Source: a virus. From it: a DNA stretch of 37,877 bases. Location: positions 1 to 37,877 of the IMG/VR virus record IMGVR_UViG_3300032093_000370. The stretch is one strand, 5' to 3'. The translations under genes were made by a program, and so were the position numbers. Below the pieces are notes generated by a model, which saw only the letters and a program-made list of their open reading frames with translations, was not told the DNA's origin and did no database searches. This document shows, piece after piece, positions 5,710-37,877 of this stretch. Position 1 is the stretch's first letter, and every line of letters starts with the position of its first letter.

Positions 5710-5724
5710 TAGGGCCAAAAATAA

Positions 5725-5756
5725 AAGAAAAAAAGGGGTAGGACAACCCTACCCCT
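5725..5756 (-). terminator. Rho-independent terminator after the DUF932 gene
   Basis: On the minus strand the stem AGGGGTAGG pairs with CCTACCCCT around a 5-nt loop and is followed by a run of seven T and then CTTTTATTTTT. It lies 18 nt beyond the DUF932 stop and directly before the NinG-like start, so the downstream replication genes need read-through or their own promoter. Confidence 0.85.
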
Positions 5757-8188: not shown

Positions 8189-9157
8189 TTATTTACTGAG
8201 AATAGCGTTTGCAATTCGTTTAAATTCTGTCTTTCCATGGTTTTTGTAAATGTCACTTAAGTCTTTACCTAGAGCATAGTCATGTTCTAAACCGATAAAG
8301 TCATAAGTAGAAGTAATTTTTTCTGTGCTTTGTTTCCCTGTCCTATCGGCATCTAGCCACACATAAATCCTTTCAAATCTTTGTTTTAGACTTTCTATTT
8401 TGTCTTTAGGCAAATCCCAAGAAGTTTCTGACCTTAGACATATTGCTGTTTTGCCCAGACTATCTAAAGTCATCATGTCTTTTTCTGCTTTAGTTATGAA
8501 TAAACTTTTTCCTTTTTGAGGGAGATACTCGTACCCGGGCAAAATAGTTTCATTGTAATTATTGCGGAACTTCTTCAGTTTGCTGGCAAAAGGCCGATAA
8601 AGTTTTACTTTTCCTTCATTGATGTATTGATAGCAAACATCTATGTTGTTTTTCAAATACCAGTCTCTTCCATTTATCTGAGCCCTGCTTACTTTTTTTA
8701 CTAAGTATTTTTCTAAGGACTCTTTGGTTATTCCGTAAGAATTCCAATAATCAAAATCCTTTTGTGTCATGGGCTCAAATCTGCACCCTATTGCAGTTTC
8801 ATTAATTTCTTTAACTGCTTTTTCAAAGGACATTTGAGGATGAGGACAGGTCAAATCTGTAAACTTAGAAAAGTCTTCTTGGATTTTTACTATAAGGTCT
8901 ACTCCAGATACGCCAGTTCTTTTAGAGGCCACATCTAAACAATCCATAGAGCCATAAGCAAAGTCCTTAAAGATAAGTTTCCCTGTTTTGGTATAATGAA
9001 AATAACAGTCTGGGCTAGTATCTCGTCTAAAGGGATTGCAATGAGGTTTATTTAGAACAATAGATGCACCAAAATAGTATTCCATTATGGATTCTTGTCC
9101 ATAATATTCTACTACTTCGGACAAAGACATAAAAGAGTTTAGTTGGGTAATATCCAT
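8189..9157 (-). CDS. DnaG-like primase with TOPRIM domain (322 aa)
   Basis: Makes RNA primers for replication. The N-terminal part carries the primase substrate-entry pattern CNPFRRDTSPDCYFHY followed by GKLIFKDFAYGSMD, as in DnaG and T7 gp4 (N-P-F-R ... DF). The TOPRIM core has LFITKAEKDMMTLDSLG (catalytic Glu) and YVWLDADRTGKQ (DxD), then GKDLSDIYKNHG, the usual KD-x-SD motif. A canonical four-cysteine zinc finger is not seen. The ATG at 9157 follows the terminator stem directly; an in-frame ATG at 9187 lies inside the hairpin and is rejected. Confidence 0.85.
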   Translation of the reverse strand: MDITQLNSFMSLSEVVEYYGQESIMEYYFGASIVLNKPHCNPFRRDTSPDCYFHYTKTGKLIFKDFAYGSMDCLDVASKRTGVSGVDLIVKIQEDFSKFTDLTCPHPQMSFEKAVKEINETAIGCRFEPMTQKDFDYWNSYGITKESLEKYLVKKVSRAQINGRDWYLKNNIDVCYQYINEGKVKLYRPFASKLKKFRNNYNETILPGYEYLPQKGKSLFITKAEKDMMTLDSLGKTAICLRSETSWDLPKDKIESLKQRFERIYVWLDADRTGKQSTEKITSTYDFIGLEHDYALGKDLSDIYKNHGKTEFKRIANAILSK

Positions 9158-9164
9158 TGCGTAA

Positions 9165-9202
9165 TAAGATACAAAAGGGGAGAACATACGTCCTCCCCTT
9201 TA
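9165..9202 (-). terminator. Rho-independent terminator between ssDNA-binding protein and primase
   Basis: Minus strand AAAGGGGAG, a roughly 10-nt loop, then CTCCCCTTTT followed by GTATC. It starts 14 nt after the ssDNA-binding-protein stop and ends about 15 nt before the primase ATG, matching the hairpin-then-ATG arrangement seen repeatedly at the right end of the window. Confidence 0.75.
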
Positions 9203-13455: not shown

Positions 13456-13475
13456 AGATAATAATGTTACAGGAA

Positions 13476-13508
13476 AGAAAAGGAAAAAGGCCCTTGTGAG
13501 GCCTTTTT
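13476..13508 (-). terminator. Rho-independent terminator
   Basis: Minus strand AAAAAGGCC, 7-nt loop, GGCCTTTTTCC. Lies about 25 nt after the stop of the 70-aa gene and is followed by the leader CTTTTCTTTCCTGTAAC before the next ATG. The A-rich left arm makes it bidirectional in form. Confidence 0.85.
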
Positions 13509-13532
13509 CTTATTCATAGGAGATTGTAGGGG

Positions 13533-14829: not shown

Positions 14830-14896
14830 AATTTAGTCTTTTTTCCATGCTGCATCCGATCAGCAGCAGGGCGAGTAGTAGTGTTATGGTTCGCAT
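14810..14896 (-). CDS. Tiny lipoprotein (28 aa)
   Basis: MRTITLLLALLLIGCSMEK: a basic start, a leucine-rich helix and the lipobox LIGC, so signal peptidase II should cut before Cys15, leaving a 14-residue lipopeptide. The same DNA segment is repeated in the gene at 15313-15555. It resembles the entericidin/lysis-peptide size class, but a lysis role is only a guess. Overlaps the next gene by 20 nt. Confidence 0.6.
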   Translation of the reverse strand: MRTITLLLALLLIGCSMEKRLNYETLGN

Positions 14897-15312: not shown

Positions 15313-15555
15313 TTATTTTGTGGTTAAAATCCCGCCCTTCTGGTAGCTGCATCTGATAAGCAGCAGGGCGAGTAGTAGTGTCAGGAAATAGCGTAGATAT
15401 TTTGGCTGCGTTTTGATGACTTTTTCTTCAATTACATCGTTGGATTGCTCGCAGGTACATTTCGGCAAACAATCCGCTATCTCCCGCTTTTCGGATTCCA
15501 ACAGCAGCAGGCCGTGTTCGTCGGCAAGGTGTTTGAAAAGTTTGTCAAGGTTCAT
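15313..15555 (-). CDS. Membrane-anchored small protein with altered lipobox (80 aa)
   Basis: ATG at 15555 is preferred: it has AGGAGG eight bases upstream and forms ATGA with the preceding stop. The N-terminal 50 residues are soluble with a Cys cluster (CLPKCTCEQ); residues 56-72 (YLRYFLTLLLALLLIRC) are a membrane helix. The helix is nearly the same DNA as the 28-aa lipoprotein signal at 14810-14896, but the lipobox Gly is Arg, so lipid attachment is unlikely and it probably acts as a C-terminal anchor. Confidence 0.6.
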   Translation of the reverse strand: MNLDKLFKHLADEHGLLLLESEKREIADCLPKCTCEQSNDVIEEKVIKTQPKYLRYFLTLLLALLLIRCSYQKGGILTTK

Positions 15556-16169
15556 AGTCCGGCCTCCTCTCTGCTTATGCGCTCGAACTCCACAACCCAC
15601 ACCCACGGGTTTGCTTCCCATGATTCGGGGCCGTTGATAGATTGCCAGAGGCTTTGGAAGGAATCCTTGGCATAAACGAACAATTCTATACGATTTTTAC
15701 CACTATAATCGAATAAATAATCTTCATAACCTTCCCCAGCTTCTGAATAATAAATGCCTTCATTTTTCGCGTCGTCTTCGCTTATCTCCTGCAACCGTTC
15801 AACGCGGACGGCCTTGATGCGCAGGAACAGGCGGGCAGCTTCGCGGGGCATATGGATAGAAGGCTTCCATTTCCAGTCCTCGCTGCTGTCGCTGTAGTCG
15901 GCTTTGAACTGATAGCCGATATCGTTACCGTCACTATCAGAGGGCAATGCCCACGTTTCCTGCACCCACAGCACGTCGCCGGACTGGCCGTAGGGGCAAC
16001 GAACCGTGTGGTTGAGGGTTTTTTCGGTTACAAAAGCAATTGCATTGTCTGCGTTTAAAAAGTCGTCAGACGGCGGCTGCGGTTTCACCACCCTGCGGGT
16101 CTGAGTTTTTCTGCCTTCGCGAATAGCCTGCACCTCCCACGTCTTTAATGGAATCGGCCGCGTTTTCAT
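15552..16169 (-). CDS. ASCH/PUA-like domain phage protein (205 aa)
   Basis: Opens with RPIPLKTWEVQAIREGRKTQTRRVVKPQP, split by the motif EGRKTQTRR typical of phage ASCH-like proteins, then GDVLWVQETWA, MPREAARLFLRIKAVRVERLQEISEDDA and WVWVVEFERI. ASCH domains bind RNA or modified bases, but this phage group is uncharacterised. GC-rich, with an AAGGGGGTGA ribosome site at its start; probably acquired as part of the 15.3-17.9 kb module. Confidence 0.8.
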   Translation of the reverse strand: MKTRPIPLKTWEVQAIREGRKTQTRRVVKPQPPSDDFLNADNAIAFVTEKTLNHTVRCPYGQSGDVLWVQETWALPSDSDGNDIGYQFKADYSDSSEDWKWKPSIHMPREAARLFLRIKAVRVERLQEISEDDAKNEGIYYSEAGEGYEDYLFDYSGKNRIELFVYAKDSFQSLWQSINGPESWEANPWVWVVEFERISREEAGL

Positions 16170-25041: not shown

Positions 25042-25560
25042 TTAATCGACATGAATCCATGTTTTTTTATTTATTATTTTTTGTATACAACTAATGTTTA
25101 CACCATATTCACAAGAAAGTTGTTTATATGTATATTTTTTAGATATATATTTTTCACGAATTTGTTTTACTTTTTCTTCTGTCATTTTGGAGTTCCATCT
25201 TTTTTCTCCTAAATGGTTTTCTTGTAATCTGTTTTCATAAGCATGTATTTGATTTTCTGATTTAGTAACCCACTCAAGGTTTTCAACCACGTTATCAGTT
25301 TTTATTCCATTTTTATGATTTACTTGAGGTTTGTTTTCAAAATTTGGAATAAAAGCATCAGCAATTAATCTATGAATAAGATGTGTTTTTGCTTTTTTAT
25401 TTTTGTATAACACAACATGGTTATAACCATTTAATAAAACTTTTTTAAGAAAGTACTCTCCAGATTTGTTATACTTAGATTTGTTTGTAGATTTCACATT
25501 CCCATAATTTGAAATGTAATAAAGATTTTCATAACCTTTAATTTCCTTCCATATTTCCAT
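25042..25560 (-). CDS. HNH homing endonuclease with NUMOD4 domain (172 aa)
   Basis: IWKEIKGYENLYYISNYGN is NUMOD4; HLIHRLIADAFI and QVNHKNGIKTDNVVENLEW form the HNH site; YKQLSCEYGVNISCIQKIIN is the C-terminal helix-turn-helix. Paralogue of the 22400-23002 nuclease but clearly diverged and much more AT-rich, so the two arrived separately or long ago. A 60-nt AT-rich spacer precedes the gene. Confidence 0.9.
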   Translation of the reverse strand: MEIWKEIKGYENLYYISNYGNVKSTNKSKYNKSGEYFLKKVLLNGYNHVVLYKNKKAKTHLIHRLIADAFIPNFENKPQVNHKNGIKTDNVVENLEWVTKSENQIHAYENRLQENHLGEKRWNSKMTEEKVKQIREKYISKKYTYKQLSCEYGVNISCIQKIINKKTWIHVD

Positions 25561-28236: not shown

Positions 28237-28740
28237 TTACATGAATCCTTCTTCTGCCATACTTGTGTATTTTACTGAATCTTCTCGATACAGAATAATA
28301 TGGTCTAGCAATCTTATATCGAACAAATCTAAAGCACTTTTTAGTTTCTTTGTTATGTCTATGTCTTGAGAGGAAGGTTTGGGGTTTCCTGAAGGGTGAT
28401 TATGGGCAAGGATAACTGCAGATGCATTCGTTAAAATAGCTTTTGCGGTTATCTTAGTTATGTCTACTATCGTCCCTGAGTTTGAGCCGGAGCTAACTTG
28501 ATAAATGCCTAATACTTCGTTTCTTTTAGATAAAGTAGCACACAGGCAGATTTCTTTTAAATCTATACAGCTTTCAAAATGAGGACTTAAAATCTCTACT
28601 GCATTTTGAGAAGTTCGTATAAACATAGAAGTTTGATTTCTTGAATATACAAGTGCTAACTCATTAGCCTGTAAAAGAGGTACTATTTGGTCAGATAGTT
28701 TTTTGTATGTTTTATTCTTTGATGGATAGAATGTTCTCAT
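28237..28740 (-). CDS. RadC/JAB-domain (MPN+) protein (167 aa)
   Basis: The metal-binding JAMM motif is clear: NEVLGIYQVSSGSNSGTIVD and ILAHNHPSGNPKPSSQDID, giving E ... H-x-H-P-S-G ... S-x-x-D, followed by LLDHIIL. This is the RadC family found in bacteria, prophages and conjugative elements, a probable metallo-hydrolase of uncertain target. It is not needed for RadA-type repair despite the name. Transcribed alone, between two terminator/leader junctions. Confidence 0.88.
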   Translation of the reverse strand: MRTFYPSKNKTYKKLSDQIVPLLQANELALVYSRNQTSMFIRTSQNAVEILSPHFESCIDLKEICLCATLSKRNEVLGIYQVSSGSNSGTIVDITKITAKAILTNASAVILAHNHPSGNPKPSSQDIDITKKLKSALDLFDIRLLDHIILYREDSVKYTSMAEEGFM

Positions 28741-28809: not shown

Positions 28810-29196
28810 CTACCTCCACACAACTTGAGGGTAGGGCTGGTAAGAGACTTGCTTTTCTCGAGCAAACTCTCTTAAATGGGTAATCCAACGAGAACCCCTT
28901 TTTTCAAAGGTTTTCTTTGTTGGGCGAGTAATCCAGCTCGTTACCTTTACTGGCTTCATTTCTGAAGCTCGCTCAGACAAATGTAGTTCAACATTAACCT
29001 GTCCTTTTTCTGTAAGGACATTGTTGATGGTTAAGCTGTCAAACATTTGTTCCACCTCTCTTTGAATCAAGAAGTCAAGCTTCTTTTGTGCAGAAAGCAA
29101 AGGACGTGCTGGAACACTTCTAAAGGCTTTTGTGTGGCTGAAATCTACCTTCTCGTAGATTTTCTGCCCGATTTTGGTGATTTTTCTTGTTCTCAT
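28810..29196 (-). CDS. Basic hypothetical protein (128 aa)
   Basis: Rich in Lys and Arg with no recognised motif (RKITKIGQKIYEKVDFSH; RPTKKTFEKRGSRWITHLRE). Possibly a nucleic-acid-binding protein. It lies between two terminators, so is expressed as a single gene. Confidence 0.6.
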   Translation of the reverse strand: MRTRKITKIGQKIYEKVDFSHTKAFRSVPARPLLSAQKKLDFLIQREVEQMFDSLTINNVLTEKGQVNVELHLSERASEMKPVKVTSWITRPTKKTFEKRGSRWITHLREFAREKQVSYQPYPQVVWR

Positions 29197-29225
29197 CTGT
29201 GTGAAAGATTGGTACAGAAAAGAAA

Positions 29226-29275
29226 AGAAAAAAATCCCCTATAAAAGAGTTTATTGGGTCACTATAACCCAATCA
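29226..29275 (-). terminator. Terminator-like hairpin overlapping a gene end
   Basis: Minus strand ACCCAATAAA pairs with TTTATAGGGG around CTCT, followed by ATTTTTTTCTTTTC. The left arm contains the end of the upstream gene. The leader CTTTTCTTTTCTGTACC follows, as at other hairpin junctions. Confidence 0.6.
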
Positions 29276-30384: not shown

Positions 30385-30549
30385 TTAGTGAGTTAAATAA
30401 TAGGTAGTTAATGCGGTTACAATTATTGCCAGTACAAAATAGAACGCTTCTACTTTCGTTTGTCTTGTGCTTTTTTTGGGGTCGTAAAGACAAACACCTG
30501 CTAAAAATGCTACTGTAAACAGAGCAAGGAAGGCTAAAAAGATTTTCAT
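30385..30549 (-). CDS. Two-helix membrane protein (54 aa)
   Basis: ATG at 30549 forms ATGA with the pcfJ-like stop. Residues 1-20 (MKIFLAFLALFTVAFLAGVC) and 36-52 (FYFVLAIIVTALTTYYL) are hydrophobic, joined by the basic loop DPKKSTRQTK, so the protein would be a hairpin in the membrane. Short enough to be missed by most callers. No family recognised. Confidence 0.6.
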   Translation of the reverse strand: MKIFLAFLALFTVAFLAGVCLYDPKKSTRQTKVEAFYFVLAIIVTALTTYYLTH

Positions 30550-31781
30550 TGTTTATGTTTTTTTAGTAGTTTAGGTAATTGAGTTTCTACAACTGATACT
30601 ATTGTATCGTGATGTTCTGTTTTTTGATTGCAAGCTCCATAAGCTTGATAAACGCGCTTTGCTTTAAGGTCATAAGCAATAGTCTCTAAAGGCTTGTCAT
30701 CTATAGATGATGTAAGAACTAACAAATCTGATTCTTTGTAATAAGCATTTGTAAACACACAATGATGCATCTTTATTTCTTCATTGAAAAAGTCATCTAC
30801 TGATTTTAAGGGAACAATCTTTATTCCTTCGTGGTCAATAATTAGGTTTTCAAACTTACTGATTCTTTTCAAATACTGTGGATTAAAAGCACGTTCTTCT
30901 TCTAGTTTTTCTTTTAGTTGTGCTTTTCTTTTTCTTTTGAGGTACTTGTCGTGTTCTTTTCGAAGGTTTTTAGGAAAAAGATATTTAGGGCTTCGTATGT
31001 CTTTACCGGCAAACTCAAGCAAATCTATGTAATCTGTCCAAAGAGAATAGCTTTCAATTTCATAATCATGTCTCATAGCTATTCTTATTTGAGGCCAGTA
31101 TCTGTCAAGTTTATAAGCTCGAGATAAAATGTGGCCATATCCATTTTTGAGCAGTATTTCGTACTTAGGATTAACGAATACTTGACTAATAAATTCATCT
31201 AAGTTGTTTCTCCCCCACTCTCCATAAAATCCTCTTTTTTCAAGTTCTGGATGAATGTTTAGATAAGGGTAAACATCTGCTTGCAAGAAAGTACATTGTG
31301 AGCCTTTAAAGAGTTTTATTTCTAAAGGCGAATGCTCATACACATCATAAGAGAAATGCTTTTTCTTTTTTGATACATAGGTAATTTTTCCTTTAGTGCT
31401 AATCCAATTTTGAGCGACTTCAAATACGTGATACTTTACTTTCTTTCCAACTTTGTAAAGTTTTTGAACCCTAAAAGTACGAATAATCTGAAATTCTTCT
31501 TTTGTATCAAATACTCCAAAGTCATAAGTAGGACGATTAACGTAATTAATAACTTGAGTTTCTTTTTTGCATTTTTTACACTTGATTATCCTTTGAGTAT
31601 CTCTAAAATAAGTAGTTACTTTTTGACTATGCCCACATTCTAAACAATAGACAGTCTTATATCTTTGATAAGAATAATTCCGGTTATTTTCTATTCCCCA
31701 CTTTTTCTGTTCAGGGGTTAAAAAAGAAAGAGAGTGCCCTAGTTCGAGCACTCTCTTATGTAGTTGGGTCTTTGGTTTCAT
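30546..31781 (-). CDS. PcfJ-like protein (411 aa)
   Basis: The C-terminal half is the PcfJ domain: EIKMHHCVFTNAYYKESDLLV, then LETIAYDLKAKRVYQAYG and CNQKTEHHDTIVSVV, the M-x-H-C-V ... T-I-x-x-D ... Q-x-x-G-x-x-N pattern. The N-terminal part has a zinc ribbon, YCLECGHSQ and IKCKKCKKE. PcfJ-like proteins are common in Bacteroidota mobile elements and phages and usually follow PcfK; their molecular role is unknown. Confidence 0.85.
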   Translation of the reverse strand: MKPKTQLHKRVLELGHSLSFLTPEQKKWGIENNRNYSYQRYKTVYCLECGHSQKVTTYFRDTQRIIKCKKCKKETQVINYVNRPTYDFGVFDTKEEFQIIRTFRVQKLYKVGKKVKYHVFEVAQNWISTKGKITYVSKKKKHFSYDVYEHSPLEIKLFKGSQCTFLQADVYPYLNIHPELEKRGFYGEWGRNNLDEFISQVFVNPKYEILLKNGYGHILSRAYKLDRYWPQIRIAMRHDYEIESYSLWTDYIDLLEFAGKDIRSPKYLFPKNLRKEHDKYLKRKRKAQLKEKLEEERAFNPQYLKRISKFENLIIDHEGIKIVPLKSVDDFFNEEIKMHHCVFTNAYYKESDLLVLTSSIDDKPLETIAYDLKAKRVYQAYGACNQKTEHHDTIVSVVETQLPKLLKKHKQ

Positions 31782-32186
31782 TTAAAACAGACTTGCTTGC
31801 ACAATTTCTGGTTTTTCTGATTTAGGCTTAGTAACAGTTTTGAGTTTCTTTTTCTCTTCTGCTATTACTTCTTGGACTGCAGCTTTACGAGCTTCTGCTT
31901 TTTCTTCTTCAGTAAGCTCTACATGATGATTTACGACAACTCTACCGTTAGCTTTAGATTCTACTTTAGTTGAATCAGAGCGGTAATATTCAAACGCCAT
32001 GTCGTAGACTTCTTGGTCTGCAAATCCATTTACTCCACTTTCTTGTACTTTGTTTAAGATGTAGGATACACATGAATCTATATCCTTTTGGGGATTGTGA
32101 AACTGTGCATGAAACTCTGAATTCACGCTTGCTTCCAAAGAAAGCTTTTGCTGAATTACTTGTTTAAATTGTTCGCTTCCTTTCAT
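31782..32186 (-). CDS. PcfK-like protein with C-terminal QASLF tip (134 aa)
   Basis: Residues 1-75 match PcfK: QFKQVIQQKL, DIDSCVSYILNKVQESG and FADQEVYDMAFEYYRSD. The C-terminal third is charged and ends VQASLF, close to the QL[SD]LF pentapeptide that binds the bacterial sliding clamp. It overlaps both neighbours and lies in the PcfK-PcfJ order typical of Bacteroidota elements. Function of PcfK is not established. Confidence 0.8.
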   Translation of the reverse strand: MKGSEQFKQVIQQKLSLEASVNSEFHAQFHNPQKDIDSCVSYILNKVQESGVNGFADQEVYDMAFEYYRSDSTKVESKANGRVVVNHHVELTEEEKAEARKAAVQEVIAEEKKKLKTVTKPKSEKPEIVQASLF

Positions 32187-32507: not shown

Positions 32508-32540
32508 GAAAAAAAGGGGCGGTTGCAGCCGCCCCCTCGC
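32508..32540 (-). terminator. Strong Rho-independent terminator ending the tRNA-Ser-like transcript
   Basis: Minus strand GGGGCGGCTGCAACCGCCCC with a very stable stem, followed by TTTTTTTC. It separates the RNA cluster from the Tad2 operon. Confidence 0.9.
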
Positions 32541-33386: not shown

Positions 33387-33457
33387 GGGGCAGTGTGGGA
33401 GTCGAACCGCACATCTCTGAGATAAACTACAGGCTTTACCATTATAGCTAACTGCCC
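33387..33457 (-). tRNA. tRNA-like gene, anticodon undetermined
   Basis: Acceptor GGGCAGT/ACTGCCC is perfect (7/7), the D-arm GCT...AGC is normal, and the T-arm has GTG-C-GG/CC-CAC with one bulged C. The stretch where the anticodon arm belongs (CTGTAGTTTATCTCAG) has only three closing pairs and a 10-nt loop, so no anticodon can be read. 71 nt, minus strand, no encoded CCA. Confidence 0.5.
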
Positions 33458-33460
33458 TTT

Positions 33461-33560
33461 AGTACGTATGGGAGAGTTTTTGCAGCCTTCCGACGTAGCT
33501 GCTTTCTGTTGGTGGCCAAATCCAACGACTAACCTTCTCAGTGAAAGTACCATACGTATT
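33461..33560 (-). ncRNA. Candidate structured RNA between two tRNA-like genes
   Basis: A 9-bp closing stem TACGTATGG/CCATACGTA (33463-33471 with 33550-33558) encloses two internal hairpins: GTTGG/CCAAC with a 9-nt loop and GCAGC/GCTGC with an 11-nt loop, plus a possible GAGA/TCTC pair. Looks like a three- or four-way junction without TTCRA, so it is not a standard tRNA. Size and position fit a small phage regulatory RNA or ribozyme. Confidence 0.5.
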
Positions 33561-33562
33561 TG

Positions 33563-33642
33563 TGCCCCTGACCGGACTCGAACCGGTAAGCTTTCGCAAC
33601 GCTGTTTAAGAGCGCCATGTTTACCTGTTTCATCACAGAGGC
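33563..33642 (-). tRNA. tRNA-Leu(TAA)
   Basis: Complete cloverleaf: acceptor GCCTCTG/CAGGGGC (one G-T), D-stem ATG/CAT, anticodon stem GCGCT/AGCGT (one G-T) with loop CTTAAAC giving anticodon TAA, variable region GCGAAAGC, T-arm ACCGG-TTCGAGT-CCGGT. It reads TTA, a frequent codon in this AT-rich genome. CCA is not encoded. The only fully normal tRNA of the cluster. Confidence 0.88.
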
Positions 33643-33686
33643 ATTCTTTCATACTACCTTATATTTATACTATGAGGGCAAATATA

Positions 33687-33714
33687 GAAAAAAAAAGAGC
33701 TTATAAAAGCTCTT
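33687..33714 (-). terminator. Rho-independent terminator after the truncated gene at 33701
   Basis: Minus strand AAGAGCTT, ATA loop region, AAGCTCTT then a run of ten T followed by CTATATTTGCCC. The hairpin starts inside the end of the small open frame. Confidence 0.8.
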
Positions 33715-33829
33715 GTGGGATAGCTGGGTACTGATGATGTTGCCACCATTCAGATCCATCGTACTCTCCTCGGGTCATCCAAGTTCCATCTTGGAGCCAA
33801 ATAGTTCCAGCGACAATTCCGCCACCTGA
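33701..33829 (-). pseudogene. 5'-truncated small protein, start replaced by a tRNA fragment
   Basis: The frame gives GGIVAGTIWLQDGTWMTRG then EYDGSEWWQHHQYPAIP, a W-L-x-DG-T-W-x-x-R-x-EYDGSEWW pattern typical of small conserved Bacteroidota phage proteins. But there is no ATG except an internal one at 33778 (25 aa), and the DNA where the normal start should be is a copy of the 5' end of the tRNA at 33949-34038. Probably a damaged gene. Confidence 0.55.
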
Positions 33830-33837
33830 CTATTTGT
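33817..33837 (-). repeat. 21-bp copy of a tRNA 5' end
   Basis: TTCCGCCACCTGACTATTTGT is identical at 34024-34044, where it is the acceptor and D-stem start of a tRNA-like gene. The two copies are direct, 207 bp apart, and flank the small membrane gene and the tRNA itself, like the traces left by tRNA-targeted recombination. Confidence 0.75.
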
Positions 33838-33838
33838 T

Positions 33839-33931
33839 TTATTTCTTTTTAGAATTTTCGTAGATACCACCTAAAATAACAATCATTATTATTTGTAGAA
33901 ATGTCGATACCCAATAATACGCATGTTCCAT
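33839..33931 (-). CDS. Micro-protein with one membrane segment (30 aa)
   Basis: MEHAYYWVSTFLQIIMIVIL then GGIYENSKKK: a single hydrophobic helix with a basic tail. Lies between the two 21-bp repeats. No family recognised. Confidence 0.5.
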   Translation of the reverse strand: MEHAYYWVSTFLQIIMIVILGGIYENSKKK

Positions 33932-33948
33932 ATTTTCTATTTTTTTAG

Positions 33949-34038
33949 TAGTCAGGACAGGATTCGAACCTGTAATTTGAGGGCGCGACCCTCGTGACAT
34001 TAGCCTCGCTTGCGTCTAACCATTTCCGCCACCTGACT
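33949..34038 (-). tRNA. Class II tRNA-like gene (Leu/Ser type), anticodon undetermined
   Basis: Acceptor AGTCAGG/CCTGACT is perfect, D-stem GCG/CGC, long variable arm GAGGG-TCGCG-CCCTC, T-arm ACAGG-TTCGAAT-CCTGT and discriminator A are all normal. The 17 nt where the anticodon arm should be (AGCGAGGCTAATGTCAC) cannot form a stem in any register tried. The 5' end is duplicated at 33817. 90 nt. Confidence 0.5.
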
Positions 34039-34043
34039 ATTTG

Positions 34044-34117
34044 TGCCTCAGAGAGGATTCGAACCACCGACCTACAGCTTAGAAGGCTGCCGCTCTATCC
34101 AACTGAGCTATTGTACA
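34044..34117 (-). tRNA. tRNA-Arg(TCT)-like gene with broken acceptor stem
   Basis: D-arm GCTC/GAGC and anticodon arm GCAGC-CTTCTAA-GCTGT are good and give anticodon TCT; the T-arm has one mismatch. The 3' acceptor CTGAGGC needs a 5' partner GCCTCAG, but the sequence there is TGTACAA (2 of 7 pairs). The 5' end overlaps the last codons of the 39-aa gene upstream. Either degenerate or repaired by editing. Confidence 0.55.
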
Positions 34118-34227: not shown

Positions 34228-34390
34228 GGCCTGTAGTCCATATCGCGATTACTCGCGGAACTTCCTACAAACGTACACAGATCTCCTGTATCACCACAAC
34301 TCTTCTATATGCGCAAACCCTGAACTAATAATCAGACAAAAAAGAAAAGAAAAAAAGCCCCCATGTAGTCTGCATACTTTCTTTTATGCC

Positions 34391-34708: not shown

Positions 34709-34970
34709 TTATTGATTACCAATAAATTAGAAGAACTCAGAATGGCTTTTTAGGGTGTGGTCTGCACACAATTTATTTAACAAAAGTCAATAATCTTGTA
34801 TTATTTTGTAAATAAAGTGAACAAAAACATTAAAATTTCCTTAAAGTTTAAGTTTTATTTAAGGAGATTAATTAAAACAGTAAAGTTTATTTAGGGGAAG
34901 TTTTGTTTTTGGTAAACTTTATTCTGATTGATTATCAATAAGTTAGTTAATCTTGTACTATAGTATTTAA
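34709..34970. repeat. Two diverged 22-bp repeats with inverted symmetry, plus CTTGTAYTA motifs
   Basis: Copies at 34709-34730 and 34925-34946 match at 19 of 22 bases (TTATTGATTACCAATAA inside the first; the central ATTGATTATCAAT of the second is a perfect palindrome). Each is followed or preceded by a CTTGTAYTA element (34795, 34952). They lie in the most AT-rich part of the window. Confidence 0.6.
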
Positions 34971-35040
34971 GTTTGCTCGGGCAAAAGTTTTTCTTACTTA
35001 TTTTTTTAGTCTCTAAAGGCTTTAAGATTCCTTAAAAGAG

Positions 35041-35075
35041 AAAAAAAAGAACCCTGCTGCTTTCGCAGAGGGTTC
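35041..35075 (-). terminator. Rho-independent terminator after the first SSB-like gene
   Basis: Minus strand GAACCCTCTGC, GAAA loop, GCAGCAGGGTTC, then TTTTTTTCTC. Nine nucleotides beyond the stop of the 180-aa gene. Confidence 0.9.
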
Positions 35076-35083
35076 TTCTTTGC

Positions 35084-35626
35084 TTAGAAGAGCTGTGGGG
35101 GCTCGTCTTCGCTCTCTGCTGTGTGCAGATTGTTTACCGGGGCAGGACTAATGTCCATTGCGTCTCGGTCGTCTCCTGTGCCTTTAGGCATAAGCCGTGT
35201 CTTGCGGAACACGGGCTCACCTTTATAGGTCACAGGTTGTTTGGTGGTGCGGTCTTTCTTTTGGTTCTCCGCAATGTAGAGAACCCGACCTTCGGTATTC
35301 CTTTTCAGGATTCCCTTCTTAATAGCACTCTCAATGCCCACAGCCTCAAGGACTTGGACTTCGAGAGCCATGTTAAACACCACCTCTGCATCAATGTTCC
35401 TTTCGGAAACATCAAGCGAGTTCTTACTGTCTGTTCCGGCAAGCTCATCTGAGCTCACCCCCAACATCTGTTCGCACTTCTCCATGGAGAAAGTGTGGAT
35501 GCAAGAGCGGGCAATAGAGCTATTACCGGTAGACATAGCCAGAGGGTTGTTGGCGTGCAGCTGGCAAAGTGCACTAACCGAACCAGACTGGTTCAGCCAC
35601 AGGGCCACAATTTGGATTTTATTCAT
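35084..35626 (-). CDS. Candidate ssDNA-binding protein, copy A (180 aa)
   Basis: Paralogue of the protein at 36089-36637. Shared landmarks in order: W-LN-x-SGS near residue 12 (ALWLNQSGSVSAL), LVAMST-type LAMSTGN, C-x-HTFS-x-EK (CIHTFSMEKC), a V-F-N-M ... ILEAVGI-type helix (VVFNMALEVQVLEAVGI), GxxxR ... VFRKTRL, and an acidic flexible tail ending DEPPQLF. The early beta strands, helical middle and acidic tip ending in hydrophobics fit an OB-fold ssDNA-binding protein, but no profile match is seen. Preceded by a CTTTTCTCTATTG leader. Confidence 0.55.
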   Translation of the reverse strand: MNKIQIVALWLNQSGSVSALCQLHANNPLAMSTGNSSIARSCIHTFSMEKCEQMLGVSSDELAGTDSKNSLDVSERNIDAEVVFNMALEVQVLEAVGIESAIKKGILKRNTEGRVLYIAENQKKDRTTKQPVTYKGEPVFRKTRLMPKGTGDDRDAMDISPAPVNNLHTAESEDEPPQLF

Positions 35627-35660
35627 CTCTTATAAAGATTGGCAATAGAGAAAAGAAAAA

Positions 35661-35692
35661 AAGGGCCTATAACCCCCTTATACGCCCTTATA
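35661..35692 (-). repeat. CCTATA decamer run next to a weak hairpin
   Basis: CCTATA, CCTTATA and CCTTATA start at 35666, 35676 and 35686, in exact 10-bp register, matching the array at 34391-34440 in form. On the minus strand the first part pairs as AAGGG/CCCTT before TTTTTTTC, a weak terminator-like hairpin. Confidence 0.6.
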
Positions 35693-35993
35693 TTATTTTG
35701 TTGAACTTTTACTTTGTCTCCGCCCGGGGATTTTTGAGACCAATCCCTACTTTGTCTAAGTTTTATCCCTATTCTGATGTGCTTATTCTTCTAATACTTA
35801 TACAAAATAAGAGGAACTTTGCTCTTCTTCTGTTCTTATAAGTTCTTGATTATCTTATACTTGTATTATTCTTGTTCTTCTTCTGCTCTTCTTCTTGTAC
35901 TACTACGCCATTTTTTCTCCGGGGTTCTTCTTGTACTATTATGTTCAGGTTCGCCCGGGCCGCGAAGGTGGACGGTCTCACTTACAGGCGACA

Positions 35994-36052
35994 GCTCCAA
36001 AGCTTTCCGCGACTGTCCGAGAATGTCCGAGCAATGCTAGAGCTTTCCGAGA
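35994..36052. repeat. TCCGAG decamer array with exact 10-bp register
   Basis: TCCA at 35996 and TCCG at 36006, 36016, 36026 and 36046 lie in one 10-bp register; the slot at 36036 is degenerate (CTAG). The core is GTCCGAGNA. A different core from the CTATA arrays but the same spacing, so probably a separate protein site. Confidence 0.65.
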
Positions 36053-36057
36053 AAAAA

Positions 36058-36080
36058 GAAAGCCCATTTTCAGGGCTTTC
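36058..36080 (-). terminator. Rho-independent terminator after the second SSB-like gene
   Basis: GAAAGCCC, 7-nt loop, GGGCTTTC with T and A runs on the two sides, so it can act in both directions. Nine nucleotides after the 182-aa gene stop. Confidence 0.9.
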
Positions 36081-36088
36081 TTTTTGGG

Positions 36089-36637
36089 TTAGAACAAGGA
36101 CTCCGCGAACTCCGAGTCGTCCTCTGAGGTACTCTGCGGGTTGTTCGGTTTGTTGGGGGCTACGTTGCTCACGAGCACGTCCTTGTTTTCGGGAGAGTTA
36201 ACCGTCAAGCGGGTCTTTCGGTAGACCTGCTGACCGTTAACTTTGACCAATTCCTTTTCGCGGTTGCGTTTCCGCGAAGCTTCTTCGCCCAAGATTTGGT
36301 TGTCCTTCTTGCGAAGGATACCGAGCTCAAGTGCGTCAGCAATCCCTACGGCCTCTAATATTTGGATTTTGCAATCCATGTTAAAGACCTGTTGGGCGCT
36401 AATAGGCGCAAACTCGAGCGGGTTCTCGTGCGTCCGCCCCTTCATTTCCGCAATCTGTTCGGGGCTTAATCCGAGCAATGGAAGCTTTTCTTCGCTAAAG
36501 GTATGCAGACAAGTGCGCCCTTTAGCGTTCGAGGAAGTGGACATAGCGACCAGAGAGGTGTTAGCCTGCTCCGCGAAGATTGTGAAAGAGCCGCTCTTGT
36601 TGAGCCAGCCTGCCGAAAATTTGATTGTGTTAGACAT
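36089..36637 (-). CDS. Candidate ssDNA-binding protein, copy B (182 aa)
   Basis: Same layout as the protein at 35084-35626: AGWLNKSGSFTIFAEQ, SLVAMSTSSNAKGR, TCLHTFSEEKL, VFNMDCKIQILEAVGI, VYRKTRLTV and an acidic tail ending EFAESLF. Overall identity looks moderate, so an old duplication. The gene is markedly GC-richer than copy A's spacer. It is the first gene right of the phased repeats, and is preceded by the hairpin-leader junction. Confidence 0.55.
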   Translation of the reverse strand: MSNTIKFSAGWLNKSGSFTIFAEQANTSLVAMSTSSNAKGRTCLHTFSEEKLPLLGLSPEQIAEMKGRTHENPLEFAPISAQQVFNMDCKIQILEAVGIADALELGILRKKDNQILGEEASRKRNREKELVKVNGQQVYRKTRLTVNSPENKDVLVSNVAPNKPNNPQSTSEDDSEFAESLF

Positions 36638-36682
36638 ACAATACAGAAAAGAAAAAAAGAGTGCCTTTATTCAAGGCACTCT
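36638..36682 (-). terminator. Hairpin-leader junction 1, stop codon inside the loop
   Basis: Stem AGAGTGCCTT/AAGGCACTCT (36658-36682) with the TAA stop of the upstream gene in the loop; then TTTTTTTCTTTTC and CTGTATTG directly before the ATG at 36637. The pyrimidine leader may be part of the start signal. Confidence 0.8.
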
Positions 36683-36900
36683 ATTCCATCGCATACACAG
36701 ACTCCATCACACGCATTGTGCGATGAGTCTATACAGATGTGAGGTTCGACGAGTGGCTCGTCTTTTACCTCATTAAACATCCATTCCCGAACCCAATTAG
36801 GGTTTTCGGGTTCCCTTTTTTCGCAATGCATGCAAGGGCAAGGAAGCCCTTTGCTGCCTGAACATGAGGCAGCGATTAGAATTATGATTAGATATTTCAT
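36667..36900 (-). CDS. Small lipoprotein with cysteine-rich mature part (77 aa)
   Basis: ATG at 36900; MKYLIIILIAASCSGSKGLP has a lipobox AASC, so Cys13 is lipidated. The mature part has CPCMHCEK, HICIDSSHNACDG and CVCDGIECLE, eight more cysteines in a short length, likely disulfide-bonded or metal-binding outside the inner membrane. Could block receptor or entry of other phages; unproven. Confidence 0.65.
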   Translation of the reverse strand: MKYLIIILIAASCSGSKGLPCPCMHCEKREPENPNWVREWMFNEVKDEPLVEPHICIDSSHNACDGVCVCDGIECLE

Positions 36901-36939
36901 ACAATACAAAAAAGAAAAACCTCTCTGTTAGGAGAGGTT
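36901..36939 (-). terminator. Hairpin-leader junction 2
   Basis: Stem AACCTCTC/GAGAGGTT with loop CTAACA (36918-36939), then TTTCTTTTTTGTATTGT directly before the ATG at 36900. Confidence 0.8.
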
Positions 36940-36950
36940 CTTCGGTAGGG

Positions 36951-37127
36951 CTATGGGATTCTTTGGATGCTCCAAGCCATTAGGCCTGCAGATACCAAGA
37001 ACCCCATAATACTTGCGGCCATAATCTTTGCCCCCATCATGGTAGAGGGCAACATAACCATGGCTACGCCCATGGCTACTACTGAGAGTAGCAGGGCTGC
37101 TTTCGAAATTTGGAACAGGGTCTTCAT
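36951..37127 (-). CDS. Small membrane protein, two helices (58 aa)
   Basis: MKTLFQISKAALLLSVVAMG then MVMLPSTMMGAKIMAASIMG and FLVSAGLMAWSI: two methionine- and alanine-rich hydrophobic segments, with basic ends. ATG at 37127 follows the hairpin leader. Methionine-rich membrane peptides of this size can be holin-like, but no lysis context is seen. Confidence 0.55.
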   Translation of the reverse strand: MKTLFQISKAALLLSVVAMGVAMVMLPSTMMGAKIMAASIMGFLVSAGLMAWSIQRIP

Positions 37128-37164
37128 ACGCTACAGAAAAGAAAAACCCTCCGTTAGGAGGGTT
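37128..37164 (-). terminator. Hairpin-leader junction 3, stop codon inside the loop
   Basis: Stem AACCCTCC/GGAGGGTT (37145-37164) with TAA of the upstream gene in the 4-nt loop, then TTTCTTTTCTGTAGCGT before the ATG at 37127. Confidence 0.8.
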
Positions 37165-37354
37165 GGGTGGTCTTGCGTACCCGCATCACGGAGAGGTAAG
37201 TCTCCGTTGCGTTTACGGGCGTACAAGACAGAATCATGATGGCGTATTCATGACGCCATTGATTGAGGTGCTTTTGTGCCTCGCTGTGAGACACAACCTC
37301 GATTACCGACTCCCACTTCGGAGAGTCGATAACATTTGAAAATACTTTTTCCAT
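37154..37354 (-). CDS. Hypothetical protein (66 aa)
   Basis: MEKVFSNVIDSPKWESVIEV ... LNQWRHEYAIMILSCTPVN: mixed alpha/beta, no known motif. Its last codons form the terminator stem. Transcribed from the same array as its neighbours. Confidence 0.6.
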   Translation of the reverse strand: MEKVFSNVIDSPKWESVIEVVSHSEAQKHLNQWRHEYAIMILSCTPVNATETYLSVMRVRKTTQPS

Positions 37355-37396
37355 AACAATACAGAAAAGAAAAAAAAGCCCACACGAAGTGGGCTT
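37355..37396 (-). terminator. Hairpin-leader junction 4
   Basis: Stem AAGCCCAC/GTGGGCTT with loop TTCGT (37376-37396), then TTTTTTTCTTTTCTGTATTG directly before the ATG at 37354. Best example of the junction. Confidence 0.85.
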
Positions 37397-37402
37397 ATTG
37401 GG

Positions 37403-37630
37403 TCAGAGCTTTACCTCTTCCCCGTCAATGACCAGCCTTTGAGGCCGCTTACTAACAGGGTTAAAGGCGATGAAGCCCGAAACTTCCTTACCCCCTACAT
37501 AGAGGGTAAGGTTAAAGCGATAGCCGCTTCCGTCTTCACGGAGTATCTCCATGACGTTGCGGCTACTGATGAATTCTTCCCCAACAGTCTTGCTGGGGAA
37601 GTGTACGTGGATTTCTGTGATGTTCATCAT
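37403..37630 (-). CDS. Hypothetical protein (75 aa)
   Basis: MMNITEIHVHFPSKTVGEEF ... LYVGGKEVSGFIAFNPVSKR: beta-rich, probably a small barrel. ATG ATG at 37630 follows the TCTATTCTGTATTGTT leader; a longer frame to 37660 is rejected. Right-most gene in the window. Confidence 0.6.
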   Translation of the reverse strand: MMNITEIHVHFPSKTVGEEFISSRNVMEILREDGSGYRFNLTLYVGGKEVSGFIAFNPVSKRPQRLVIDGEEVKL

Positions 37631-37877
37631 AACAATACAGAATAGAAAAAAACTTACCATACCTCTATCCTATCCTTACCTCTATCCTTAAAAATTACTA
37701 TACTATATATATCCTATCTCCCCGCCCATCGTCGACCTTATCCCTACTCGTTGACTAGGGGGGTACCGACACTCGCTTCCATGGCCGGGGGGTCTCTAAT
37801 AGTGGACCCCAACACAGCCATACATATAAAAAAAATTTTCTTTTTGGGTAGGAAAAGAGGGGGGGGGGTAGGAAAAA
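37631..37877. promoter_or_regulatory. Right-end non-coding region, candidate early promoter
   Basis: No gene. Contains CCTCTATCCT twice (37662 and 37679 as first base), an AT-rich TATATATA tract at 37704-37711, a hairpin GGGGTC/GACCCC (minus strand, 37788-37811) and ends in GGGTAGGAAAA repeats around a run of nine G. The G run may be an assembly edge. Confidence 0.4.

Follow-up and report, generated by a model that had tools for sequence, protein, structure and literature searches.

The early genes of T4-like phages are served by a host-type promoter with a normal leader. Within these genomes, promoter early stem-loops (PeSLs; Arbiol 2010, Comeau 2014), as portrayed in the papers that cite them (PMC4503421, PMC3950731), couple a stem-loop terminator to an early promoter; many copies occupy the short intergenic gaps among the small early genes of one region. 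Cluster K mycobacteriophages carry a conserved 13-bp repeat (SAS; GGGATAGGAGCCC), itself containing Shine-Dalgarno-like sequence, at the start codons of some small genes, with a conserved 17-bp inverted repeat (ESAS) just upstream in about half of the copies (PMC3203893); the haloarchaeal virus HGTV-1 places a repeated promoter-like box and an inverted repeat before many small open reading frames (ORFs). Promoters of the jumbo-phage (phiKZ, AR9) virion RNA polymerases (vRNAPs), and the pre-early promoters of P23-45, are short, AT-rich and conserved within a phage, differ between phages, stand only before early genes and belong to phages that carry their own RNA polymerase (RNAP) (PMC7598289, PMC5312081, PMC10770324); a change from phage to phage is the rule for the jumbo-phage enzymes (PMC7598289). 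Here we describe the right-hand end of a 37,877-nt viral stretch (IMG/VR record IMGVR_UViG_3300032093_000370; hereafter ‘the window’), where five consecutive small genes on the minus strand start directly behind copies of a T-rich element, CTTTTCTGTATTG. The account that we favour, and hold to be reasonably probable, is that these are composite terminator-promoter units of the early region of an environmental crAss-like phage, their element being read by the phage’s own crAss-type RNAP to give leaderless pre-early mRNAs.

The locus appears to work in the manner of PeSLs, SAS/ESAS and the HGTV-1 motifs but, judged by sequence and lineage, to belong to none of them; given these similarities of layout, the preliminary description of this DNA was wrong to state that no described phage start signal is like it. 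As in PeSLs, terminator and repeated element are found in tandem, the promoter role of the element being predicted; here, however, the element is of non-host type, its T-tract also belongs to the terminator, and it runs right up to the ATG, whilst lineage and host also differ from those of PeSLs as cited. Neither the 13-bp SAS nor the conserved 17-bp inverted repeat is present: the element is T-rich, and the hairpins are terminators whose stems share no common sequence. HGTV-1 differs in being an archaeal virus with a TATA-like element (PMC3950731). In common with the vRNAP systems, there is an AT-rich motif limited to putative early genes, in a phage that encodes its own RNAP; unlike them, at most 2–3 nt separate motif and ATG, as against AR9 leaders of 26–491 nt.

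The five genes (starts at 37630, 37354, 37127, 36900 and 36637) are each preceded by T5-8 and then CTTTTCTGTATTG with 0–2 mismatches, giving an element of ~20 nt with the form T5-8 C TTTTCT GTATTG. The CTTTTCTGTATTG copies end 2, 2, 1, 1 and 1 nt before the respective ATG, bearing out the original observation of a repeated leader 0–3 nt ahead of five start codons; a first-order Markov null (2000 runs, 69 starts) yields a mean of 0.006 start-adjacent sites and a maximum of 1, against the 5 observed. A motif search upstream of the starts recovers the element: unsupervised expectation-maximisation on 14 upstream regions, picked so as to include the reported sites, returns TTTTTTCTTTTCTGTA with a log-likelihood ratio (LLR) of 110, versus 38–48 in shuffled or simulated sets. 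Scored with a leave-one-out matrix, six copies (those of the five genes, plus one lying 16 nt before the ATG of a paralogous gene at 35626) rank highest among 132,267 positions, 0–2 places scoring better; further high scorers lie at 34355 (before tRNA genes), 29228/29233 (before 29196) and 13483 (before 13455). The same scan of the opposite strand, and of the late module on a second contig of this phage (G002), gave nothing comparable; the element, a short and AT-rich motif whose sequence is conserved across this phage, is confined to the early/middle-gene strand. Towards its right end the window carries leftward-running genes on the minus strand, and we infer the early timing of those bearing the element from position only. 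Taken together, the repeated element is probably a phage-specific promoter.

Terminator hairpins (-13.4 to -17.6 kcal/mol; z -2.3 to -4.5) directly precede four of the five start-codon copies, confirming the hairpin and T-run reported at four starts. The stop-to-start gaps between the five genes (48, 26, 50 and 29 nt) are taken up by hairpin, T-run and element; as first suspected, no normal 5' leader can be accommodated after the hairpin, and gaps of 26–50 nt likewise leave no room for another promoter there. Such an arrangement might instead represent an extended terminator, in which T-run and CTTTTCTGTATTG form a phage RNAP termination signal for the upstream gene and the promoters lie elsewhere: hairpin and T-run directly precede most copies, a conserved 26-nt motif marks seven pre-early sites of termination in P23-45 (PMC10770324), and the copy at 34336–34355 has no ORF right behind it. 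We consider this unlikely, although it keeps some weight since P23-45 possesses AT-rich vRNAP promoters alongside its pre-early terminator motif. The copy at 37630 has its T7 run and element without a terminator hairpin and without a preceding gene in the window; GTATTG is missing from three terminators that lack a nearby downstream start (36055–36083, 35052–35070 and 32513–32538); one copy of the corresponding element in a relative (L003, position 1991; see below) stands apart from the preceding terminator; and the short gaps would leave the next genes promoterless. The end of the window is also the end of the contig, so other genes may precede the one at 37630; ten consecutive G close the contig (window 37848–37877) and may mark either an assembly stop or the end of the genome.

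The context of translation initiation sets the five genes apart. In the remaining genes of the phage, A is found at -12, -13 and -14 in 69, 66 and 61% and at -3 and -4 in 56 and 58%, resembling the initiation context of Bacteroidetes and the adenine rule of Flavobacterium, where A at -3, -6, -12 and -13 aids initiation (PMC6847099). The five element genes have one A in -12 to -1, against a mean of 5.5 (standard deviation, sd, 1.8) in the others; N-terminal matches, between the paralogues (genes 5 and 6) and to the L003 homologue of gene 2, back the start codons. Since a leader would not fit and the initiation context is missing, the simplest reading is that translation is leaderless, and leaderless mRNAs would be implied if the hairpins terminate.

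These same start codons could be served by a ribosome-recruiting element; a U-rich site, for protein S1 for example, in the untranslated region of a read-through transcript and acting like a Shine-Dalgarno sequence. Five copies do lie 1–2 nt before the ATG, and the SAS repeats at cluster K start codons have been proposed to act in translation (PMC3203893), but we find the idea distinctly unlikely. The A-rich context of other genes is missing here, which disfavours an ordinary ribosome site; the distance between element and ATG varies, being 1–2 nt in five genes and 16 nt at the paralogous gene, as if the element were not tied to the ribosome; read-through would be blocked by strong hairpins; and a syntenic relative with a similar host has an unrelated element. 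Of the three options put forward at the outset, a non-Shine-Dalgarno ribosome site is thus disfavoured, an RNA processing signal has gained no specific support, and the promoter of leaderless mRNAs appears to fit best, given the variable ATG distance (1 to 16 nt or more) at transcription-unit starts, the one copy without a hairpin, the absence of the element from gene-less terminators and the replacement of the element by another at the corresponding site of the relative.

The 37.9-kb window is part of a crAss-like phage: its replication proteins, among them the DNA polymerase, the primase and the replicative helicase, match those of crAss-like phages. Members of this group inject a giant RNA polymerase. 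Two further IMG/VR contigs derive from the same phage (identity >99.9%), neither covering the five-gene region, and one of these (G002) adds 28 kb on the left side of the window. This extension holds a 1472-aa ORF with the DxDxD-bearing RNAP signature SGGDYDIDKL and a match to crAss001 gp50 (E=3e-11), as well as a 2207-aa ORF that matches the RNAP-associated protein gp65 of phi14:2 (E=9e-18) and for which a PDB search gave no useful match. The phage accordingly encodes its own crAss-type RNA polymerase, with a putative location in the virion.

That host RNA polymerase should transcribe from the element, whether with sigma-A or with an alternative sigma factor, seems quite improbable. TGTATTGY is like the flavobacterial SM5 box TAnnTTGY (PMC9723704), from which TGTATTGT is one fixed base off, and host-type -7 boxes follow terminators at 33652, 5709 and, on extension contig L126, 2156. 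However, a box at -12 to -5 would imply, in all five genes, a transcription start past the ATG; the -33 element is absent at the copies; the late module is without the element; and the syntenic relative has a different one. Nor do the five copies show the host sigma-A pattern (TAHHTTTG, with a start ~5 nt downstream), and scans for sigma70-type promoters gave no excess over shuffles.

Synteny with the window is seen in the relative in question (G001; L003 and L145), where the 37354 gene, the 27728 helicase and the 23945 and 23385 genes all have homologues in unchanged order. Here too there are tandem small genes with terminators between them, followed by TAACCCATTATTA (LLR 69 vs 31–41) and a short A-rich stretch before the ATG. 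Conservation in relatives, suggested as a check, thus holds for the tandem layout and fails for the sequence of the element. A shared layout with divergent letters fits a promoter that varies along with its polymerase and would be unexpected for a ribosome signal. Elsewhere, motif discovery in crAss001 found only an A-rich stretch near the start codon, resembling an initiation region. Scans of IMG/VR for the exact motif before an ATG gave one match per contig among the matches listed; seven IMG/VR contigs with a longer exact form contain no tandem set of start-codon copies, and in one sequence (L040, from the same metagenome as G003) the sole match falls inside coding sequence.

Could the repeat serve mainly as short homology for shuffling small early genes, as for T4-like PeSLs, with regulation secondary? 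The genes are small and without homologues in the collections searched, two paralogues share the element, and PeSLs mediate shuffling, as cited in PMC4503421. Searches with the paralogous early proteins (genes 5 and 6) found no homologues, and the 66-aa protein of gene 2 retrieved only L003 and, weakly and over a short length, a Persephonella metagenome-assembled genome. Against such a linker, the copies measure only ~20 nt, and neither their exact placement at start codons nor the missing initiation context would be explained; moreover, the idea is compatible with a promoter and does not exclude one. As the principal role of the repeat we think it very improbable indeed.

Returning to composite terminator-promoter units, we envisage a phage RNA polymerase, probably brought in by injection, that binds to the element and starts transcription at the A of the ATG or 1–2 nt before it; one small gene would be transcribed before the enzyme stops at the next hairpin, giving a leaderless one-gene early mRNA, and the U-tract of each terminator would double as the upstream half of the next promoter element. 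The anatomy of the units, the statistics, the restriction to one strand and module and the parallel layout in the relative are read from the sequence itself; promoter activity, start site, polymerase and leaderless translation are inferred. Several points weigh on the other side. The sole, distant relative found does not share the letters of the element, and motif discovery in the early regions of phi14:2 and Lbo-JY46 gave no similar or clear motif. Known jumbo-phage vRNAP promoters start ~6 nt downstream of their element (PMC5312081), an offset that would land inside the ORF, such that the spacing here must differ; it is the presence of the gene, and that alone, which points to the phage RNAP. 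Leaderless mRNAs are also rare in Bacteroidetes (PMC7366714, PMC9723704): 3.7% of 5' untranslated regions are <10 nt in B. thetaiotaomicron (PMC7366714) and 5.5% of mRNAs are leaderless in F. psychrophilum (PMC9723704).

Going further, and tentatively, the element may represent a promoter class, the first to be recognisable, for a crAss-type virion RNAP, physically merged with a terminator U-tract and changing in sequence from phage to phage with the polymerase; a literature search, which did not extend to the main phi14:2 vRNAP papers, found no description of a promoter for the giant RNA polymerase of crAss-like phages. If composite units are indeed at work, one 20-nt sequence ends one transcript and starts the next, leaderless one; and if the mRNAs are leaderless, the phage sidesteps the Bacteroidetes rule of A-rich initiation. 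For in vitro transcription, the clear candidate elements of two phages provide direct templates.

Table 1. Element copies, host-type boxes, terminators and small genes, with positions in the window.
Feature	Position	Strand	Details
Unit 1	37633..37652	-	T7 + CTATTCTGTATTG, 2 nt before ATG 37630; CTTTTCTGTATTG copy 37633-37645, 1 mismatch
Small gene 1	37403..37630	-	75 aa, unknown
Terminator hairpin after gene 1	37376..37396	-	8 bp stem, -13.7 kcal/mol, z -4.5
Unit 2	37357..37375	-	T-run + perfect CTTTTCTGTATTG (37357-37369), 2 nt before ATG 37354
Small gene 2	37154..37354	-	66 aa; L003 homologue, 62%
Terminator hairpin at gene 2 end	37145..37164	-	TAA stop of gene 2 inside loop
Unit 3	37129..37147	-	T5 + CTTTTCTGTAGCG, copy 37129-37141, 2 mismatches, 1 nt before ATG 37127
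Small gene 3	36951..37127	-	58 aa, hydrophobic
Terminator hairpin after gene 3	36914..36943	-	12 bp stem, -17.6 kcal/mol
Unit 4	36902..36920	-	T5 + CTTTTTTGTATTG, copy 36902-36914, 1 mismatch, 1 nt before ATG 36900
Small gene 4	36667..36900	-	77 aa, N-terminus lipoprotein-like
Terminator hairpin after gene 4	36658..36682	-	10 bp stem
Unit 5	36639..36657	-	T-run + perfect CTTTTCTGTATTG (36639-36651), 1 nt before ATG 36637
Gene 5	36089..36637	-	182 aa, paralogue of gene 6, 35% identity
Terminator after gene 5	36055..36083	-	no gene close behind; without element (internal control)
Unit 6	35643..35661	-	T-run + CTTTTCTCTATTG after hairpin 35659-35679, 16 nt before ATG 35626; strong copy
Gene 6	35084..35626	-	180 aa, paralogue of gene 5
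Extra copy TTTTTTCTTTTCTTTTTTGT	34336..34355	-	upstream of tRNA genes, no ORF directly behind; good copy
TATATTTG	33679..33686	-	after terminator 33695-33714, 26 nt before ATG 33652; host -7 box type
Variant T-run CTTTTCTTTTCTGTA	29209..29233	-	before ATG 29196, 16-nt leader
Variant CCTTTTCTTTCCTGTA	13464..13483	-	after hairpin 13483-13509, before ATG 13455
TATTTTTG	5716..5723	-	after terminator 5734-5756, 6 nt before ATG 5709; host -7 box type

Weaker copies of the element appear to mark other transcription-unit starts (Table 1). Amongst the related forms listed in the preliminary description, that at 35626 stands as a strong copy, albeit 16 nt from its ATG, and those at 29196 and 13455 as recognisable variants, the former without a hairpin directly against its T-run; the copy upstream of the tRNA genes is an addition to that list. 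The supposed partial forms fared less well: the 28740 site is too weak for assignment, with 302 better places in the leave-one-out scan, whilst 5709 is better matched by a host -7 box and 9157, despite a hairpin, was rejected as having no real copy of the motif. The boxes TATATTTG (33652) and TATTTTTG (5709) match TAHHTTTG, another box occurs at 25560, and we regard the first two as probable host-type promoters placed behind a terminator; as such boxes are not enriched genome-wide (10 vs 12.4 expected, sd 3.2), it is their position that marks them out. On extension contig L126 (2107–2168), a strong terminator is followed by TATCTTTG, a host -7 box, with an ATG 5 nt on; a host-type version of the fused terminator-promoter layout.

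The first ATG of the primase gene (9187) sits within a stable hairpin (window 9157–9201); the in-frame ATG at 9157, just behind it, is the likelier start, because the matches of other primases begin near it. Leptolyngbya phage Lbo-JY46 (L142–L144; PP438436.1) has a cyanobacterial host on record and is crAss-like, with a polymerase 44–47% identical to that of the window; Bacteroidetes-type TATCTTTG boxes precede its genes at 16079 and 47186, and its true host may be a Bacteroidetes companion.

In the early/middle region a RadC-like JAB domain protein is encoded at window 28237–28740, and adjacent PcfJ- and PcfK-like genes, of families named after plasmid proteins, occupy 30546–32186. For the tRNA region (33387–34110, minus strand) Rfam gives 4 matches and ARAGORN 2, one with an undetermined anticodon. 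A 37-nt direct repeat (76% identical; window 34946–34982 and 35924–35960) is found in two extended non-coding gaps, and repeats of the CTTCTTGTACTA type lie close by. Lastly, two 36-nt copies, 94% identical, are found on neighbouring genes (window 14849–14884 and 15346–15381); their translated part resembles a lipoprotein signal, and they are perhaps a duplicated signal sequence.

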